NCBI GenBank assembly: GCA_026400155.1
Contig: JAPLPO010000110.1
Span: forward strand, 1 to 42,000
DNA from: Burkholderiales bacterium
GTDB lineage: Bacteria > Pseudomonadota > Gammaproteobacteria > Burkholderiales > Burkholderiaceae_C
Reading direction: 5' to 3'
DNA length: 42,000 nucleotides
Made by a program: the position numbers and the translations under genes. Shown in pieces: positions 8,980 through 19,013 of the stretch (the stretch's first letter is position 1; the number at the start of each line of letters is the position of its first letter). The notes under the pieces were generated by a model, which saw only the letters and a program-made list of their open reading frames with translations, was not told the DNA's origin and ran no database searches.

Positions 8980-9094
8980 CAAAACATTGCTGAACCAAGT
9001 CAGCAGGTGCTAAACCGTTTGACGCATGTCGGAAAAAACTGATTTGCGCATCTGTGATACGATAAATTTAACTTCTTATCCAAGGTGAATTTCA

Positions 9095-10051
9095 ATGTCT
9101 TTTTACCGTGTTGTTGCCTTTGCATTTCTCATTCTTGCTCATGTGGGTCTGCATGCGCAGACTTGGCCATCACGTCCCCTGAAGCTGATTGTGCCGTTTC
9201 CACCTGGCGGCACCGGTGACCTTCTTGGACGCCTTGCGGCTAAGGAAATGGAAACCACATTGGGTCAACCCGTTGTGGTCGAGAATCGTGCAGGTGCTGG
9301 TGGTCTGATTGGCAGTGACGCTGTGGCCAAGTCGCCTGCCGACGGGCACACACTGGTCTTGTCCAACGTGGCATCGCATGCCATTGGCCCAGCCGTGTAT
9401 CCCAAAATGCCCTACGACGCTGTGAAAGACTTTACCCACATTGGATTGATTGCAGGCGTACCAAGTGGCGTGGCAGTGGCTGCCAGTAGTCCGTACACGT
9501 CAATGGATGTTCTGCTTGCCAAAGCGCGCTCTGCGCCTGGAGCAGTTCGCTTTGGCTCCAACGGCAATGGCACATCTTCCCACGTCAAACTCGCCATCCT
9601 CAACAGGGCGGCCAAGGTTGACATCACCCATATTCCTTACAAAGGCTCTGCCCCCGCTACAGTCGATTTGCTGGGTGGTCAAATTGACGGCCTGATTGCC
9701 GCTGTGCCTGATGTAGGCCGCAATCCCTTGCTCCGACTGGTAGCCATCACCTCCGACAAACGCGCTGCGCGCTGGCCTGATGTGCCCACTGTTGCCGAGT
9801 TAGGCCTAGCACCCATGGTGGCCAGCAACTGGTTTGGCATCTCCGGCCCCACAGGTATACCTGCCCCCATTGCAGACCGATTGAATGCTGCACTCACAGC
9901 AGCGCTCAACACCCCAGAACTGACCAACCGACTGCGTGATTTAGGCGCCGAGCCCAACCGCATGACTCGTGCCGACTACACAGCCTTGGTCACTTCGGAC
10001 TTTGCGCGCTGGGCCGCTGTGGCCAAGTCTGCCGATATTCGCGTTGACTGA
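9095..10051 (+). CDS. Tripartite tricarboxylate transporter substrate-binding protein (TctC/Bug family)
   Basis: Signal peptide; WPSRPLKLIVPFPPGGTGDLLGRLAAKEM; ITHIPYKGSAPATVDLLGGQID. Confidence 0.94.
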   Translation: MSFYRVVAFAFLILAHVGLHAQTWPSRPLKLIVPFPPGGTGDLLGRLAAKEMETTLGQPVVVENRAGAGGLIGSDAVAKSPADGHTLVLSNVASHAIGPAVYPKMPYDAVKDFTHIGLIAGVPSGVAVAASSPYTSMDVLLAKARSAPGAVRFGSNGNGTSSHVKLAILNRAAKVDITHIPYKGSAPATVDLLGGQIDGLIAAVPDVGRNPLLRLVAITSDKRAARWPDVPTVAELGLAPMVASNWFGISGPTGIPAPIADRLNAALTAALNTPELTNRLRDLGAEPNRMTRADYTALVTSDFARWAAVAKSADIRVD

Positions 10052-10059
10052 TTGAAAGA

Positions 10060-11034
10060 ATGCACATGAAAACATTAAAGGCTCTGGTTAGTGGGCTGAT
10101 GGCTGCAATGGCACTGTCGGGCATCAGCGCTACTGCGCAAGAATTCCCAAACAAGCCAATTCGCATCGTTGTGCCCTACAGCCCAGGCGGTGGCACAGAT
10201 GCCGTCGCAAGAATGATGGCGCAGCGCCTGTCCATCACGCTAGGTCAATCGGTGGTGGTAGAAAACAAGCCCGGCGCCTCAGCCAACATTGGCTCAGAAT
10301 TTGTAGCGCGCGCTCCAGCAGACGGCTACACCATTTTGGTCACAGCGCCCAACTTCACCACCAGCGAAGCGCTTTACGACAAACTTAGCTGGCGCTTTGA
10401 TGATTTCATTCCTGTGATTCATCTGGTGCGCTACGCCAACGTTTTGGTGTCCGCACCCGACTCAAAAATGGCAACAGTCCCCGAAATGGTGACACGAGCC
10501 AAGGCTGCGCCAGGCATGATGACGTACGGCTCAGCAGGCACGGGATCAAACTCGCATTTGGCTATGGAGCTGCTCAAACAACGCGTTGGCATCAACCCCG
10601 AACACGTGCCTTACAAAGGCTCTGGCCCGCTTAAAACAGATTTGTTGGGCAACCACTTGTTGCTGGGTGTAGACGGTCTTGGTGGAATGATCGAACTGAT
10701 CAAGAACGGGCAAGTCAAAGCTTTGGCTGTCCTTGCACCCAGACGCACCCCTTTGTGGCCTGACGTGCCAAGCCTAGGCGACTTTGGCATCAACGATGTC
10801 GATGGCAATGGCTGGTACGGTGCACTCTTGCCAGCTGGCACACCGCCAGCCGTAGTGGCCAAGTTGCACTCGGCGTTTGCAGCGGCGTTGGCCATGCCAG
10901 AAATGAGAGAGCGCCTGATGGCCATGGGCGTTGAGCCTGTGGGTGGCTCGAGTGAGTCTTTTAGGACTTACTTGCTAGGTGAACGTCGCAAATGGTCAGA
11001 CGTGATCAACACCGCCAAAATCAAAGTCAATTGA
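10060..11034 (+). CDS. Tripartite tricarboxylate transporter substrate-binding protein (TctC/Bug family)
   Basis: Signal peptide; FPNKPIRIVVPYSPGGGTDAVARMMAQRL; PEHVPYKGSGPLKTDLLGNHL. Confidence 0.94.
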   Translation: MHMKTLKALVSGLMAAMALSGISATAQEFPNKPIRIVVPYSPGGGTDAVARMMAQRLSITLGQSVVVENKPGASANIGSEFVARAPADGYTILVTAPNFTTSEALYDKLSWRFDDFIPVIHLVRYANVLVSAPDSKMATVPEMVTRAKAAPGMMTYGSAGTGSNSHLAMELLKQRVGINPEHVPYKGSGPLKTDLLGNHLLLGVDGLGGMIELIKNGQVKALAVLAPRRTPLWPDVPSLGDFGINDVDGNGWYGALLPAGTPPAVVAKLHSAFAAALAMPEMRERLMAMGVEPVGGSSESFRTYLLGERRKWSDVINTAKIKVN

Positions 11035-11042
11035 AACCAGAA

Positions 11043-11065
11043 GCAGCCAATCTCAACTTGGCTGC
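11043..11065. terminator. Stem-loop between convergent genes, possible terminator
   Basis: GCAGCCAA-tctcaac-TTGGCTGC; only a weak T-run. Confidence 0.55.
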
Positions 11066-11073
11066 GCTTTGAT

Positions 11074-11724
11074 TCAATAAGGGCCTGGAATCTTCAGCTC
11101 TTGCGCAGCCTTTTCCCAGCAGGCCACAGCTTCCACCATGGTAGGTCCACCCCGGTGCAGCAGCACATAAGAAAGCGCCTCGGCCATCTGCGCGCGAGTA
11201 GCGCCTCTTTCAAATGCGCGCTGAAGGTGAATGCGCATCCCATTTGCATTTCGAAGGCCTGCATGACAAACAGCTGCAGCAACTTCAGCAGTGGCTGGAA
11301 GTGTGCGGCCACGTGCGGCATCGAAGACGCGTGAGTAACGCTTCATTGCCATTTTTTCGGGTACCCACTTTTCAAACGCTGAGTATCCAAAGAAAAACGC
11401 ATTGAACGATTCGCAGGCAGCAGCAATTGCCAAAGCGTCGCTGATGGCACTGTTGCTCATGCCAGCTGAAGCAGCTCGCTCAAAGTGAAAGAAAGCCAGC
11501 TTTTCTCGCGTGGTGGCAATGAGCGCGATCCAAACCGTTTCTTTTTCAACCGCTGAAAGAATGCGCTCGTCAAGCGTTAGCCGTGTGTAGAGTGCGTCAT
11601 AGGTCGCAAGAAGCTTGGGGTCTGATGCACCAAGCATTCGATGGTATGGCAGAAGGTATCCGCGCTTGGCGAACATGGCTTCAAGCAGTTTCGCGCCTTC
11701 ATCTTTTGATTTCTCTTTGGCCAC
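11074..11724 (-). CDS. Carboxymuconolactone decarboxylase/AhpD-like family protein
   Basis: AlphaD-like pattern: VWIALIATTREKLAFFHFERAASAGMSNSAISDALAIAAA and AAVCHAGLRNANGMRIHLQRAFERGATRAQMAEALSYVLLHRGGP. Confidence 0.75.
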   Translation of the reverse strand: MAKEKSKDEGAKLLEAMFAKRGYLLPYHRMLGASDPKLLATYDALYTRLTLDERILSAVEKETVWIALIATTREKLAFFHFERAASAGMSNSAISDALAIAAACESFNAFFFGYSAFEKWVPEKMAMKRYSRVFDAARGRTLPATAEVAAAVCHAGLRNANGMRIHLQRAFERGATRAQMAEALSYVLLHRGGPTMVEAVACWEKAAQELKIPGPY

Positions 11725-11768
11725 CGTTTGTCTCCAGACTTTGATTGATTGGGTTAAAGCTAGTTGAG

Positions 11769-12595
11769 TTAAATGAACTCGTTAAGTTTTGCATCTATAG
11801 ACTCAAAGAAACAATCTTCAAAACGACTGCGCCAATGAGTGCCTGCAATCCAACTCTTGAACGAGTCAGAAGACAACTCGTTGCCTTCTACTGCACTGAC
11901 ACATCGCCAAGCAAGCGCCAGAGTGCAAGAGAAAACTGGCGCGCCACTCAAGCTGGGCACATGCAAAATGGACTTCAAACTCGGCATGCCTGTTCCCAAC
12001 AGCACGATGGCATCTAAAGACGTGTCACGCAGTTTGTCGATTGCATCCATGACTGAATTTGAGCCGATGGCGTAGATTGGGTTGGGCTGACCAGATCGTG
12101 ACTGACTGGCTTCACTCAGAACCACTTTGGCAACTGCTTCAACTTGAAACCCACGCGACTGCCAATAGGCAATGCTGTGCTGAAGCAAGCTATCGGGATA
12201 GGGAGAGACCAGGCCAATTCGCTGGGCATTGAGCGCATGAAGCGCATCCACCACAGAAAGTGCCGAGCTGGTGACATGAATCCCTGTTCGCTGACGCAAC
12301 TCATCGAATAAAACATCTTCCCGATCACAACCCACCAAATAGGAAGAGCCAGTACAAGCCACGCCCAAAGATCTCAAGGGTGCTTCAGCAAATTGCGCAG
12401 CAGATTGCGTCAATTGATCAAAATACGCCAACAGTCGGTTCTCTAAAGTTGCTTGCTTGCTTGCTTGCTAACCAGCCGGGCCGTGAGAAGACTCATCCCT
12501 TTGGGCAACAAGATGCCAAATTCTGGTTCGACCGTTGAGTTGGATTGAGGCGTTAAGACGCCAACAAAGCCACGTGGAGCGTATTCAAAAGACAT
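11769..12595 (-). pseudogene. Aspartate/glutamate racemase / maleate isomerase (AMDase-like) gene, frame-disrupted at a (GCAA)5 tract; possible phase-variable OFF state
   Basis: ATG at 12595 encodes MSFEYAPRGFVGVLTPQSNSTVEPEFGILLPKGMSLLTARLVSKQASKQL* (stop 12445-12443); the family continues in another frame as ...TLENRLLAYFDQLTQSAAQFAEAPLRSLGVACTGSSYLVG... to 11769. The switch falls at the repeat. Confidence 0.85.
12449..12468. repeat. Tetranucleotide SSR, (TTGC)5 on + / (GCAA)5 on coding strand
   Basis: Five perfect tandem units inside the racemase-like coding region. Confidence 0.97.
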
Positions 12596-12661
12596 GGGCT
12601 CAGTATAAAGCTAGGAAAGTGCTAGCAAGGCTTAGCTCTGTTTCAAGACCCATGACCCACA

Positions 12662-13495
12662 TCAGGTGAGCATGGGAGACAAGTTCAATGCCAGCGTCTT
12701 GAGAGCTGGCGCCACTTCATTGAGCAGCTTGGCTTTGCTCACCGAACTCTTGGCACCACCACTGGTCAATGCCATCACTTTTTTTCCGTCTGGCGATATC
12801 ACAGGAACACCGACGGCATTGATGTCGGGATGCGAACGTCCAAGGTTAAAGACCAGGCCCCATTGCGAAAATTCTTTGGTAGCGATGGCCAAATCAAGGC
12901 GAATTTTGTCGAAGACATCGGGGTCACGTTTTTTCAGTTGCTTCAAAGCAGCCTCACGGGTAGGGGCATCTACCGCGCAAAGGTAAGTCCAACCTAAAGA
13001 TGAATTCCCAAGGTCTAGGTTGGTGCCCACGTGCAAGTTCAAAGTGAGAATGCTGGGCACCTCAACTCGCTGAAGAATGAGCATGTCCGTGCCATTGCGC
13101 TCTGCCAGAGTGACTGAAATTTGGTGCTGTACCGCAACTTGACGCATGAGCGGCAGCGCAAAAGCACTTAAGCCAGTTCGAGTGATTGCCGCATGCCCCA
13201 GAAGCAACACGCCTGAGCCCACGCGCAACTTGTTGGGAGTAGCGCCTGGCACCAAATAGCCGAGTTTCAAAAGTGTGTGGCAAAGACGCCAAACAGTGGG
13301 TTGCGGCAGGCCTGTCAACCTGGCAATTTCTCGACTCCCCAAGACATCACGGTCCGGCGTGAAACAGCGAAGGATTTCGAGGCCCCTGGCAAGCGCCGTG
13401 ACAAAAAGGGGGTCTTTGAGCTCTGACTCATCAGGCCCACTTTGAGCGGCCATCGATTCTTTTTTGGCCTTGACACTTGCAGAATTGACTTTCAT
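12662..13495 (-). CDS. IclR family transcriptional regulator
   Basis: N-terminal HTH (ALARGLEILRCFTPDRDVLGSREIARLTGLPQPTVWRLCHTLLKLGYL) and IclR effector domain; start chosen at MKVNSASV (13495). Confidence 0.92.
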   Translation of the reverse strand: MKVNSASVKAKKESMAAQSGPDESELKDPLFVTALARGLEILRCFTPDRDVLGSREIARLTGLPQPTVWRLCHTLLKLGYLVPGATPNKLRVGSGVLLLGHAAITRTGLSAFALPLMRQVAVQHQISVTLAERNGTDMLILQRVEVPSILTLNLHVGTNLDLGNSSLGWTYLCAVDAPTREAALKQLKKRDPDVFDKIRLDLAIATKEFSQWGLVFNLGRSHPDINAVGVPVISPDGKKVMALTSGGAKSSVSKAKLLNEVAPALKTLALNLSPMLT

Positions 13496-13518
13496 AATGA
13501 TTTCACAATTCAATTTGT

Positions 13519-13537
13519 TGATTCATCTAGTGAATCA
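13519..13537. promoter_or_regulatory. Palindrome TGATTCA-tctag-TGAATCA; candidate IclR-family operator
   Basis: 7-bp perfect arms, between divergent iclR-like and tctC genes. Confidence 0.6.
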
Positions 13538-13596
13538 TACAAGGTGAATGAAGTATTGGATACGCACACACTTAATTTTGAAAGAAAGAACTCTCC

Positions 13597-14583
13597 ATGA
13601 ATTTTTCTCTGTCACCAAAACGAACCCTGTTGCGTCATCTCGTTCTGGGATTTCTTGCCCTCGGCGTTGGTCTTTCCCAAGCAGCCGACCCTTATCCAAC
13701 GAAGAGCGTCACCATCATCAACCCTTGGGCGCCTGGGGGTCCTTCTGATGCCATCATCCGACCCATTGCTCAGCAACTCGCCCTACGTCTAGGCCAAGCG
13801 GTTGTTGTTGAAAACAGAGCGGGAGCAACTGGCACCATTGGCGCTGCGGCAGTGGCCAGGGCCACACCTGACGGACATACACTGTTCTTTGCCCATGTGA
13901 ACCCCATTGCCATCAGTCCTTCATTGCCCCAAAAATTACCTTACGACCCTATTAAAGATTTTGCGCCCATCACTTTGATTTCTTCGGGCCCCGCCGTGCT
14001 GGTGGTCAGAAGCGATTTTCCTGCCAAAAATCTGGCCGAATTCATCGCTTTTGCACGCGCAAATCCCGGCAAAATCAGCTACGGCTCTGTGGGTATTGGC
14101 AGCAATACACACTTGGCAGGCTCCCTGCTTGGCCACATGGCCAAAGTAGACATGCTGCATGTGCCCTACAAAGGTTCGGCCACCATACAGACCGACATTC
14201 TGGGTGGATCACTCACCACTGGTTTCGTCACGCTCAGTGGCGCTCAAGCTTTGATCCAAGATGGTCGCATGCGCGCCCTGGCGGTGAGTACAGCCAAGCG
14301 TTCAAGCGTGTTGCCTGATGTGCCAGCGGTAGCAGAAATGCTGCCCGGATTTGAAATCAGTGGCTGGTATGGATTGATGGCCCCGGCCAACACCCCACCC
14401 GAAGTCATTCGCCGACTCAACACAGAGGTCACCGCTATTTTGCGCACACCCGAAATTGCAAATCGCCTGCGCGATGGCGGCATGGATTCCTCTCCCACAA
14501 CGCCAGAAGCATTTGGCGACTACATCAAAGCGGAATTGGGCCGTTGGGTGAATGCCATCAAAGTGGCCAACATCAAAGATTGA
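13597..14583 (+). CDS. Tripartite tricarboxylate transporter substrate-binding protein (TctC/Bug family)
   Basis: YPTKSVTIINPWAPGGPSDAIIRPIAQQLALRLGQAVVVENRAGATGTIG; MLHVPYKGSATIQTDILGG. Confidence 0.94.
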   Translation: MNFSLSPKRTLLRHLVLGFLALGVGLSQAADPYPTKSVTIINPWAPGGPSDAIIRPIAQQLALRLGQAVVVENRAGATGTIGAAAVARATPDGHTLFFAHVNPIAISPSLPQKLPYDPIKDFAPITLISSGPAVLVVRSDFPAKNLAEFIAFARANPGKISYGSVGIGSNTHLAGSLLGHMAKVDMLHVPYKGSATIQTDILGGSLTTGFVTLSGAQALIQDGRMRALAVSTAKRSSVLPDVPAVAEMLPGFEISGWYGLMAPANTPPEVIRRLNTEVTAILRTPEIANRLRDGGMDSSPTTPEAFGDYIKAELGRWVNAIKVANIKD

Positions 14584-14595
14584 TTCCCGCCTACC

Positions 14596-14613
14596 GGGTC
14601 CCCAACGGGACCC
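14596..14613 (+). other. Intercistronic hairpin GGGTCCC-caac-GGGACCC between tctC and amidohydrolase
   Basis: 7-bp perfect GC-rich arms, no T-run. Confidence 0.6.
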
Positions 14614-14629
14614 CCACTGACTGACGCCC

Positions 14630-15502
14630 ATGAAGCCCTACGAAATTCAAGCCATTGATGCAGTGGTCAACCTGTGGACGCCAGAAATGCTGGCCATTCG
14701 ACCCAATCGTGACGCGTTTTACGGTGGCAAGATGAAGGTCACCCAGCAAGACCTCAAAGGGGTTAGCCATGAGGAGATGTTGCGTCGAATGGATGCAGCA
14801 GGCATTGAGAGGTCTTTCTTGATCGCTGCCAAAGTGGGCCCCATCATGCACAAGGCCAGCTATCACACACCCTACGAAATGGTGGCCGAGGCCATCAATC
14901 GTTATCCAGACCGATTTTATGGCCTAGCGGGCCTAGACGCCACCGAGGGGATGGATGGCGTACGTCAGCTCGAAAAAGCCGTGAAGGAATACGGCTTCAT
15001 TGGCGCTCATTTTTATCCCCATTGGTTCGAATTGGCACCAGACCATGCCAAGTGGTACCCCTTCTATGCAAAGTGCGTAGAGTTGAATGTGCCAGTTCAG
15101 TTGCAAGTGGGACAGTCGATGCTTTACGACCCACAACACCGGCTTCGCAGTGGGGGTCGACCCATCGCGCTCGATGCCGTTGCCTGCGACTTTCCCGAAC
15201 TCAAGATCATTGGCATCCATGTGGGCATTCCATGGACCGATGAAATGATCGCGATGGCATGGAAACATCCCAATGTGTTCATTGGCACTGACGCTCACAG
15301 TCCTAAGTATTGGCCTGAAAGTTTTGTCAAATACATCAATACCTATGGTCAAGACAAAGTGATCTTCGGAACCGATTTTCCAGTGCTTGAATTTGAACGC
15401 ACCCGCGAAGAAATAGAAAATTTGAACCTTCGCGCAGAACCCAAACGCAAACTGCTGCGAGACAATGTGTTGCGCATTTATGGTTTGAATCTTTCGTCTT
15501 AA
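14630..15502 (+). CDS. Amidohydrolase family protein (ACMSD/decarboxylase-like)
   Basis: IGAHFYPHWFELAPDHAKWYPFYAKC, IGIHVGIPWTDEMIAMAWKHPNVFIGTDAHSPKYWP, VIFGTDFPVLEF. Confidence 0.88.
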   Translation: MKPYEIQAIDAVVNLWTPEMLAIRPNRDAFYGGKMKVTQQDLKGVSHEEMLRRMDAAGIERSFLIAAKVGPIMHKASYHTPYEMVAEAINRYPDRFYGLAGLDATEGMDGVRQLEKAVKEYGFIGAHFYPHWFELAPDHAKWYPFYAKCVELNVPVQLQVGQSMLYDPQHRLRSGGRPIALDAVACDFPELKIIGIHVGIPWTDEMIAMAWKHPNVFIGTDAHSPKYWPESFVKYINTYGQDKVIFGTDFPVLEFERTREEIENLNLRAEPKRKLLRDNVLRIYGLNLSS

Positions 15503-15511
15503 GGCAGGCCC

Positions 15512-16975
15512 ATGTCCATCCCTAACATTGCTGACATGCTTGGTCTGCATGGCCGTCAGAGACCTCAACACATCGCCATCATCCATGGCGAGAAGCAAAT
15601 CAACTACCAAGACCTCGACCTTCAAGTGAGCCAACGTGCGAGCACGTTACAGGCATTGGGCATTAAGGCGGGTGATATCGTTGGCATTGCTTTGGAAGAC
15701 TCTATCGAGCATTTGCTCATGATGTATGCGGTGGCGCGTGCTGGCGCTGTGATCTTGCCATTAGACTGCCGCTGGAAGATTTTTGAAAAACAACGCGTTA
15801 CTGAGCACTTCAAACCAAGCTTGGTGATGGTTGAAACTGGACAAGCTTTTGAAGGCGTGCAATGCGTTGAGGCCAACAGTGTTTGGTGCACCTCTGTTGA
15901 AGCCGCACAGATACCCGATTCATTTCCAGACGGAAATCGCGGACTCTTAATGTCCCTCTCGTCTGGCACCACAGGGCGCCCCAAAGGCCCCATGTTGACG
16001 CACCAACAACTGGTTTATCGTTTTTACATGCACTGGGCCGAACTGGGCTTAGGAAGCCGTGAACGTTATATCAATGCCACACCACTTTACTTTGGTGGCG
16101 GCCGCGCGTTTTCGATGTCTTCGCTTTATGCTGGCTCAACCGTCGTGTTGTGTCCACCGCCCTACTCACCTGCAGAATTGGTGGCTGAAGTTGCAAGAAC
16201 CAAGTCCAGTGTTTTGTTTTTGGTACCAACTCTATTGCGTCGTTTGCTCGATGAAGAAGCCGACACTTTGGTTCCGATGCAAGCACTCAAAACTTTGATT
16301 TCCTCAGGCTCTGCATTAACCCCAGACGACCGAAGCCAAATCCGCAACCGCATTTGTCCCAATTTTCTTGAGTATTACAGCTCGACCGAGGGTGGTGGCG
16401 TGTCCACACTGTCACCCGAAGACCAATTGAAATACACCGATTCGGTGGGCCGACCCGCCCTCAGTGTTGACGTGGAAATTGTGAACTCCGAAGACCAGCG
16501 CCAGCCCAGAAACACCATTGGCAGAATCCGCTATCGCGGCCCTGCCGTGGCCGATGGTTTTTACGCCGACCCCGAGGCCACCAAAGAGGCATTCAAGAAC
16601 GGATGGTTCTATCCGGGTGATTTAGGCACCATGAATGAAGAGGGCTACCTGTTTCTCAAAGGGCGCTCCAAAGACATGATCATTCGAGGCGGCATCAACA
16701 TTTACCCGCAAGAAATTGAAGCCACCCTGATGGCCCATCCCGCTGTGGCCGAAGCAGCGGTGGTTGGATGGCCCTCCAAAGAATTCAATGAAGAGATTGC
16801 AGCATTCGTCATTTTAAAAACGGAAGTGGATGTTGCCGATTTGACCCTTTGGTGCAACGAACGTTTGGCTCGCTACAAAGTACCGAAGCAAATTTTCTCT
16901 CTGAAAGAATTTCCAAGAACCTCATTGGGCAAGGTCATCAAAGCCGACTTGAGCCATCGGCTCGATCCTTTGTAG
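15512..16975 (+). CDS. AMP-binding protein / acyl- or aryl-CoA ligase
   Basis: LMSLSSGTTGRPKGPMLTHQQ P-loop; YYSSTEGG; GWFYPGDLG; KGRSKDMIIRGGINIYPQEIE. Confidence 0.94.
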   Translation: MSIPNIADMLGLHGRQRPQHIAIIHGEKQINYQDLDLQVSQRASTLQALGIKAGDIVGIALEDSIEHLLMMYAVARAGAVILPLDCRWKIFEKQRVTEHFKPSLVMVETGQAFEGVQCVEANSVWCTSVEAAQIPDSFPDGNRGLLMSLSSGTTGRPKGPMLTHQQLVYRFYMHWAELGLGSRERYINATPLYFGGGRAFSMSSLYAGSTVVLCPPPYSPAELVAEVARTKSSVLFLVPTLLRRLLDEEADTLVPMQALKTLISSGSALTPDDRSQIRNRICPNFLEYYSSTEGGGVSTLSPEDQLKYTDSVGRPALSVDVEIVNSEDQRQPRNTIGRIRYRGPAVADGFYADPEATKEAFKNGWFYPGDLGTMNEEGYLFLKGRSKDMIIRGGINIYPQEIEATLMAHPAVAEAAVVGWPSKEFNEEIAAFVILKTEVDVADLTLWCNERLARYKVPKQIFSLKEFPRTSLGKVIKADLSHRLDPL

Positions 16976-17013
16976 AGCCACACCTTCATTTTCTCAACCG
17001 ATATGAGCCTTCA

Positions 17014-18159
17014 ATGATCGATTTTGAAATTCCTGAAGAAGACAGCATGCTGCTGACTTCGGTAGATCGGATGATGGCCCGAGAATTCCCACCGGAAGCT
17101 TATCGCGCCGCCGATCGTGCGCACACAACCCCTTGGCATTTGCTGCCGCGCATGGGGGAGTTGGGCTTGCTGGGCTTGCCATTTCCAGCTCGTTATGGCG
17201 GCATGGACAAAGACTGGCGAAGCGTGGCACTGGTGAATGAGCGGCTGGCTTATCACGCAGGTATTGCCTCTACCCTCTTTGCCACCACAGTGAGTTTTGG
17301 TGGCATGTCGCTCATGACATTTGCCAGCGAACTACAACGACAAACTCTTTTGCCGCGCTTGATGGAAGGTCAGGCTAGGTTTGCATTGGCTTTGACTGAA
17401 TCAGGGGCTGGCAGCGATGCTGCAGCCTTGACCACCCACGCCAAGAAAATCAACGGTGGCTGGCTCATCAATGGCCGCAAAATTTGGATCAGCAATGCAG
17501 ATGCGGCAGACCACTTGGTTGTCGCTTGCAGAACCACGCAAGGCAGCACAGGAACCGACGGCATCTCATTGTTATTGGTGCCTCGTCATACAGCAGGGAT
17601 TAGCATGAGCCCGCTTGAGAAGCTGGGCCACAACTGCATGCCGTCTTGGGACATCGGTTTTGACGACGTGATGGTGCCAGAAGAAGCGCTTTTTGGACAA
17701 GAGGGCAAGGGGTTCAAGCACGTGCTTTCTACGCTTCAGTACAGCCGTGCAGGACAAGCCGCCAATTCAGTCGGACAAGCACAACGGGCTGTTGAGTTGG
17801 CTCGTGATTTTGCGCAGCAGCGTATTCAATTCGGCAGACCCATTGGCAACTTTCAGGCCATTCAACACAAGCTAGCCGACATGCAAGTGCGTGTGAATCA
17901 GGCTCGCTTGTGCTTGTACCAACTCGCTTGGTTAATTGCAAGCAATCGACCTTGCAGATTAGAAGCTGCGCAAGCCAAACTTGTAGCCAGCGAAGCGTTT
18001 CAGTTTGTCACACGTGAGGGATTGCAAATCATGGCAAGTCATGGCTATGCCATGGAAAGCGACATGCAGCGCATGTGGCGAGACGCTGGCTTGTTCACTT
18101 TTGGTGAAGGCACCAGTGAAATTCAACGCAATCTCATTGCAAGGGAGATGGGGCTTTGA
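17014..18159 (+). CDS. Acyl-CoA dehydrogenase family protein
   Basis: FALALTESGAGSDAAALTTHAKK; RIQFGRPIGNFQAIQHKLADM; FTFGEGTSEIQRNLIAREMGL; start at 17014 instead of ORF start 16849, which overlaps the ligase. Confidence 0.93.
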   Translation: MIDFEIPEEDSMLLTSVDRMMAREFPPEAYRAADRAHTTPWHLLPRMGELGLLGLPFPARYGGMDKDWRSVALVNERLAYHAGIASTLFATTVSFGGMSLMTFASELQRQTLLPRLMEGQARFALALTESGAGSDAAALTTHAKKINGGWLINGRKIWISNADAADHLVVACRTTQGSTGTDGISLLLVPRHTAGISMSPLEKLGHNCMPSWDIGFDDVMVPEEALFGQEGKGFKHVLSTLQYSRAGQAANSVGQAQRAVELARDFAQQRIQFGRPIGNFQAIQHKLADMQVRVNQARLCLYQLAWLIASNRPCRLEAAQAKLVASEAFQFVTREGLQIMASHGYAMESDMQRMWRDAGLFTFGEGTSEIQRNLIAREMGL

Positions 18160-19013
18160 AGCAGACGGCTGTCAAAATTGTGCGGGGATTTGTGTCCATT
18201 GACGAAGGCCAGGTGCATTACCGCCAGGCTGGAAAAAGCCAACCAGGCCAAGCACCTTTGGTGATGTTTCATGCTTCACCCGGCTCGGCCAAATCCTTAG
18301 AACCCCTGATTCAGGTGCTGGCTAAAGGTCGCCATGTCATTGCGCTAGACACCTTGGGCAATGGAGATTCTTGCGCCCCCAGCCAAGAAGCTCCTGACCT
18401 GGCGTATTTTGCGCAAGCCCATTTGCGAGCCATCACCGCAATGGGCATTGCCCAATTTGACGCTTGGGGTGCACACACAGGCGCCAACATCGCTTGCGAA
18501 TTGGCCATTGAAAATTCTGATCGTGTTCGAAGTTTGATCATTGATGGCATTGGCTTGTACAGTCCGCAAGAGCAAGCTGAATTGCTACAGCATTATTTGC
18601 CATCTGTTCACATTGATCAGCAAGGCAGCCAGTTTCATTTGCTCTGGAATTTTGTGCGGGATGCTTATTTGTTCTGGCCTTGGTATCAAAAAGACAGCCA
18701 GCACCGCCGCGCCATTGGCTTACCCCATGCCTCCGAATTGCACGACAAAGCTGTGGAGGTATTCAAGGCAGCTCGCACGTTTCATCTGTCTTACAAGGCC
18801 GCTTTGAGCTATCCCAAAGAGCAGAGGTTACCCTTGATCAAAGTACCCACACTGCTCACCTGCTCTCGACATGACATGCTGTATGTGTATTTTGAAAAGG
18901 TATCCGATTTGGTAAAGCCCACCCGTGCACAGAGTACGGCTGGATTAGGTACATCCGAGGCACTCCAAGAGACAGCGGCTTTGTTTGAACGCTTTTTAAA
19001 CGACTTGGCTTGA
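18156..19013 (+). CDS. Alpha/beta hydrolase fold protein
   Basis: MFHASPGSAKSLEPLI, VIALDTLGNGDS, nucleophile-elbow GAHTGAN; TTG start overlaps ACAD stop (TTGA). Confidence 0.85.
   Translation: MKQTAVKIVRGFVSIDEGQVHYRQAGKSQPGQAPLVMFHASPGSAKSLEPLIQVLAKGRHVIALDTLGNGDSCAPSQEAPDLAYFAQAHLRAITAMGIAQFDAWGAHTGANIACELAIENSDRVRSLIIDGIGLYSPQEQAELLQHYLPSVHIDQQGSQFHLLWNFVRDAYLFWPWYQKDSQHRRAIGLPHASELHDKAVEVFKAARTFHLSYKAALSYPKEQRLPLIKVPTLLTCSRHDMLYVYFEKVSDLVKPTRAQSTAGLGTSEALQETAALFERFLNDLA

Follow-up and report, generated by a model that had tools for sequence, protein, structure and literature searches.

The contingency loci of Haemophilus influenzae and Neisseria are the closest described systems to the locus analysed here, and among them is the Haemophilus influenzae type III methyltransferase gene, a tetranucleotide-repeat contingency locus reportedly studied by De Bolle in 2000. 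Tract length is central to how such loci are classified. Tetranucleotide tracts of about 3–12 units (AGTC) or 3–9 units (TAAA) are termed ‘mutable’, with 10^-7 to 10^-5 changes per division, and are said not to arise by selection for mutability; the hypermutable class comprises tracts of >10 units for AGTC and >9 units for TAAA (PMC4235727). A survey of Neisseria called candidate phase-variable tetranucleotide loci at lengths of at least 5 units (PMC5953494), and a 2025 review of phase variation reserves the label ‘phase variable’ for loci whose forward and reverse switching both pass a minimum rate (PMC11868660).

The window, which is the whole 42,000-nucleotide stretch of DNA that was analysed, contains a gene split by a tetranucleotide tract. 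On the - strand, an ATG at 12595 opens a frame (sequence from 12595: ATGTCTTTTGAATAC..., then GGTTAGCAAGCAAGCAAGCAAGCAACTTTAG) that passes through (GCAA)5 at 12449–12468 and meets an in-frame TAG, with the stop ending at 12443. The resulting N-terminal fragment (12443–12595, - strand) is 50 aa long, and its N-terminus, MSFEYAPRGFVGVLTPQSNSTVEPE..., matches those of the intact orthologs in the congener G870 and in L021. The remainder of the gene (11769–12446, - strand) continues in a shifted frame, from LENRLLAYFDQL... to its stop, with no further stop or frameshift. Together with the A that precedes it, the tract forms a period-4 run of 21 bp. As the length of the GCAA unit is not a multiple of 3, a change in unit number inside the coding sequence shifts the frame. 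When unit number was varied in silico, 0, 3 and 6 units gave a single continuous frame of 268, 272 and 276 aa, 5 units gave the 50-aa product, and 1, 2, 4, 7 and 8 units gave stubs. This bears out the sequence, coordinates and arithmetic of the preliminary description, in which 3 or 6 units leave the gene open and 5 truncate it. The frame break at (GCAA)5 is confirmed, as is the earlier remark that the open reading frame caller hides it by starting at the TTG at 12431; the version called from this internal TTG (11769–12431, - strand) is missing the first strand and loop (GVLTPQSN...), which are conserved.

It is highly improbable that the gene functions at five units, whether by starting at the TTG (12431), by reinitiation after the TAG or by ribosomal frameshifting at the tract. 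The TTG does lie a few bases past the stop, in the frame of the gene remainder, but its product would be without an N-terminal block of residues that are nearly invariant in the family (G9, G12, P16–Q17, N19, T21, E23, E25, R40, L41 and S43; A1 numbering), and the relatives need no such device. Frameshifting would have to proceed by -1; the tract has no X XXY YYZ slippery heptamer, and CTT TAG, the context of the stop, would instead promote a +1 shift into the wrong frame. Programmed -1 frameshifting was rejected on these grounds. The five-unit allele has presumably lost its function, since the stub would carry only the start of the fold and the TTG product would be deprived of the nearly invariant block.

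The 3′ part of the window gene matches PF17645 at 52.5 bits (cut-off 25.9), and the orthologs match almost the full model at 42–57 bits as well as the maleate isomerase 2XEC/2XED with E about 1e-25. By these matches, the gene belongs, within the Asp/Glu racemase superfamily, to the AMDase/maleate isomerase branch (Pfam PF17645; PDB 2XEC, 4FQ5, 3IXL), whose relatives of solved structure are maleate isomerases and arylmalonate decarboxylases. In the alignment to 2XEC, whose chain positions 98 and 216 we take to be the active-site Cys76 and Cys194, close orthologs keep the first-half Cys (ACTGSSY), and the second-half CCVQMPSL of 2XEC becomes LGTGMPSL, with the Cys motif (CC or SCG) replaced. The second active-site Cys that marks a maleate isomerase proper is absent from the whole ortholog set. 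The gene falls well short of both NCBIfam equivalog cut-offs; for arylmalonate decarboxylase, its 3′ part in the window scores 52.8 bits where the cut-off is 225. AMDase proper has G74 and C188, the opposite Cys arrangement to that of the window family (PMC4996985). Instead of the Gly at site 1 and the Cys at site 2 of AMDase, the family has a Cys at site 1 and the Cys-free LGTGMPSL. It is in this sense a mirror image of arylmalonate decarboxylase, the first-half catalytic Cys being kept and the second-half Cys missing in G870, L021 and L016–L020. Engineered (S)-selective AMDase variants, which carry G74C with C188 replaced, are similar to the window family. Because the Cys arrangement differs from that of AMDase and the second Cys is replaced, the reaction cannot be assigned from sequence.

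Among 90 genomes of the genus, with the window's own counted in, the gene is rare, and its closest ortholog, in G870, was located through the adjoining gene for a carboxymuconolactone decarboxylase (CMD)-family protein. In the window this downstream neighbour lies at 11074–11724 (- strand); contig 24 of G870 carries an 86% identical copy, immediately preceded by an intact ortholog that starts at the matching ATG and is 266 aa long. In the nucleotide alignment of the two genes, an 8-bp gap coincides with the tract and is the only frame-breaking gap, the one other gap being of 3 bp. At the tract site, the sequence is GTC AGC ACC CGG CCA GAT TTA GAG in G870 and GTT AGC AAG CAA GCA AGC AAG CAA CTT TAG in the window. 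The more distant orthologs, L021 from Comamonadaceae (67% identity) and L016–L020 (42–45% identity), are intact and repeat-free with the three-unit spacing, and those of L003 and L004 are likewise intact, repeat-free and of the length of the three-unit version. The window genome carries 8 bp more at this site than every relative checked. Since the excess over G870 is exactly 8 bp, or two units, three units are the ancestral length. A contingency locus is expected to have a varying tract that recurs in strains or relatives; the orthologs compared, all from other species, have no tract. The preliminary description had held that relatives free of the repeat, with an indel carried by this strain, would refute a switch, and as far as the sequence goes this is the situation found.

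The surroundings of the gene are composed of two syntenic modules. Positions 9053–12607 match G870 only and 12668–19009 match G014 only, with a junction at 12608–12667; the change of module lies within the 66 bp that separate the racemase-like gene from its upstream neighbour, a gene for an IclR-family regulator (12662–13513, - strand). This regulator and the region onward to about 19.0 kb form the separate block common to G014. Two TctC-type binding proteins are encoded near the racemase-like gene (the first confirmed by Pfam, the second judged from sequence), and the G870 gene is also adjoined by the CMD-family protein and TctC-type binding proteins. Several TctC-type tripartite tricarboxylate transporter receptor genes occur across the 42-kb contig (9095–11034, 13597–14583 and 27806–31157) and adjoin acyl-CoA ligase, acyl-CoA dehydrogenase-like, amidohydrolase and aconitase-family genes, which makes this a catabolic region. 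Both in the window (12593–12607, - strand) and in G870, a TATACT precedes the ATG by 6 bases and there is no clear ribosome-binding site, which could possibly point to a leaderless transcript; L021 and L016–L020 do not share this arrangement.

Beyond the tract, the gene stays open for 225 codons, up to its stop, and is clearly conserved. When L021 serves as the outgroup, 12 amino-acid changes are assigned to the window branch and 18 to the G870 branch; the pairwise comparison of window and G870 gives a dN of 0.18, a dS of about 1.8 (near saturation) and a dN/dS of about 0.1. Across the syntenic alignments to G870 and G014, about 9.9 kb together, only the 8-bp insertion breaks a reading frame within coding sequence, and the other gaps not divisible by 3 are intergenic or at gene edges. 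Because both halves of the gene are conserved and no other coding frame-breaks occur, the sequence fits an isolated and recent lesion, a reversible one or an artefact. An error of assembly, consensus or sequencing, with the real gene intact at 3 (or 6) units, is unlikely. It would suit a draft genome of 233 contigs and 81% completeness in which an 8-bp tandem-repeat error is a conceivable consensus fault, and it would also suit the intact state of all relatives and the undecayed 3′ half of the gene, but any common read would far exceed the 20-bp tract, which lies 12 kb from the contig end. The idea of an error-rich contig was rejected, since the neighbouring syntenic genes have no other coding frame-breaking indels. 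Another copy of the gene, or a variant allele at a different place in the assembly, was also sought and rejected: there is a single match, and the gene is single-copy in the genome.

A repeat census of the window and 137 further contigs or parts of contigs from its genome covered 1,460,559 bases (1.46 of 2.69 Mb). Within these 1.46 Mb, (GCAA)5 is the only tetranucleotide tract of at least 4 units, so the sampled part of the genome has no repertoire of such tracts of the kind expected with contingency loci. Period-4 runs number 21 at lengths of at least 12 bp, 10 at 13 bp or more and 3 at 14 bp or more, each added base cutting the number roughly 2- to 4-fold; beyond the 14-bp class, the sole longer run in the 1,460,559 bases is the 21-bp window tract. 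Four order-3 Markov genomes of equal size contained no period-4 run of at least 17 bp. The length of (GCAA)5 is far above chance for this composition, and the fall-off in run length together with the Markov controls argues that the tract is no compositional accident. The three-unit ancestral length, 13 bp, is by comparison commonplace in this genome, and growth by slippage from such a chance seed would need no selection, because the precursor is ordinary here. In the genus, none of 89 congeners contains (GCAA)5, and (GCAA)4 was not found in G870, G014, G007 or G027; a genus-wide contingency repertoire using the GCAA motif was rejected on the former count.

These results bear directly on whether the tract is a true phase-variable contingency locus, in which GCAA units would be gained and lost often enough for the enzyme to alternate between ON (3 or 6 units) and OFF states in a population. 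We consider this quite unlikely. In its favour, an in-frame tetranucleotide tract sits in the early part of the gene, the two reading frames are both kept without decay, the length is well beyond chance, and the tract just reaches the screening cut-off of at least 5 units (PMC5953494). However, all orthologs lack the tract, neither the sampled 1.46 Mb nor the 89 congeners hold a comparable one, a single allele was observed, and a cytoplasmic enzyme that acts on small molecules would be an unusual target. Five units also fall in the ‘mutable’ class, below the published hypermutable AGTC range of >10 units (PMC4235727).

The evidence from relatives and from the census points instead to a recent, strain-specific null allele produced by slippage and revertible at a low rate, rather than an evolved on/off switch, and we regard this as the probable explanation. 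In the ancestral gene, a stretch of non-conserved codons (V-S-K-Q-A-T-L) would have corresponded to three units, to which replication slippage, the likely cause of the extra 8 bp, would have added two GCAA units in one or two steps. The added 8 bp put a stop in frame just past the conserved N-terminal region, splitting off the rest of the enzyme, and the copy in this genome would be a null (OFF) allele. The lengthened tract would be more prone to slippage, and by losing two units or gaining one it could, at low frequency, bring the frame back; we infer a low reversion rate. Three points run counter to a slippage null: the at-least-5-unit cut-off is just reached, an undecayed 3′ half is also expected of a reversible switch, and the extra 8 bp could themselves be a consensus error. 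A nascent contingency locus, in which slippage-driven ON/OFF variation of a metabolic enzyme of the AMDase/maleate-isomerase superfamily would have arisen recently in this lineage, within a catabolic module of a Limnohabitans-like freshwater bacterium, is quite unlikely. Of the candidate phase-variable switch first proposed, a tetranucleotide tract that breaks an AMDase/maleate-isomerase-like frame stands, with slippage its likely origin. The proposal of an evolved switch is not supported: we see no sign that the locus was selected as one, because the relatives are tract-free, the sampled genome has no repertoire and one allele was observed.

If it is a slippage null only, the locus is a tidy example of a short tetranucleotide run becoming a frameshift, and a warning that an open reading frame caller can mask a broken gene behind an internal TTG. 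If phase variation is real here, it would be a rare repeat-based case, affecting a catabolic enzyme of a betaproteobacterium that lives free in fresh water, and the repeat-free relatives would allow a comparison. Unlike the contingency loci of Haemophilus influenzae and Neisseria, the window tract has 5 units only and is the sole such tract in the sampled genome, its relatives are tract-free, one allele length is seen and its target is a metabolic enzyme. Like them, it places a tetranucleotide tract in the 5′ part of an open reading frame, where a change in unit number shifts the frame.
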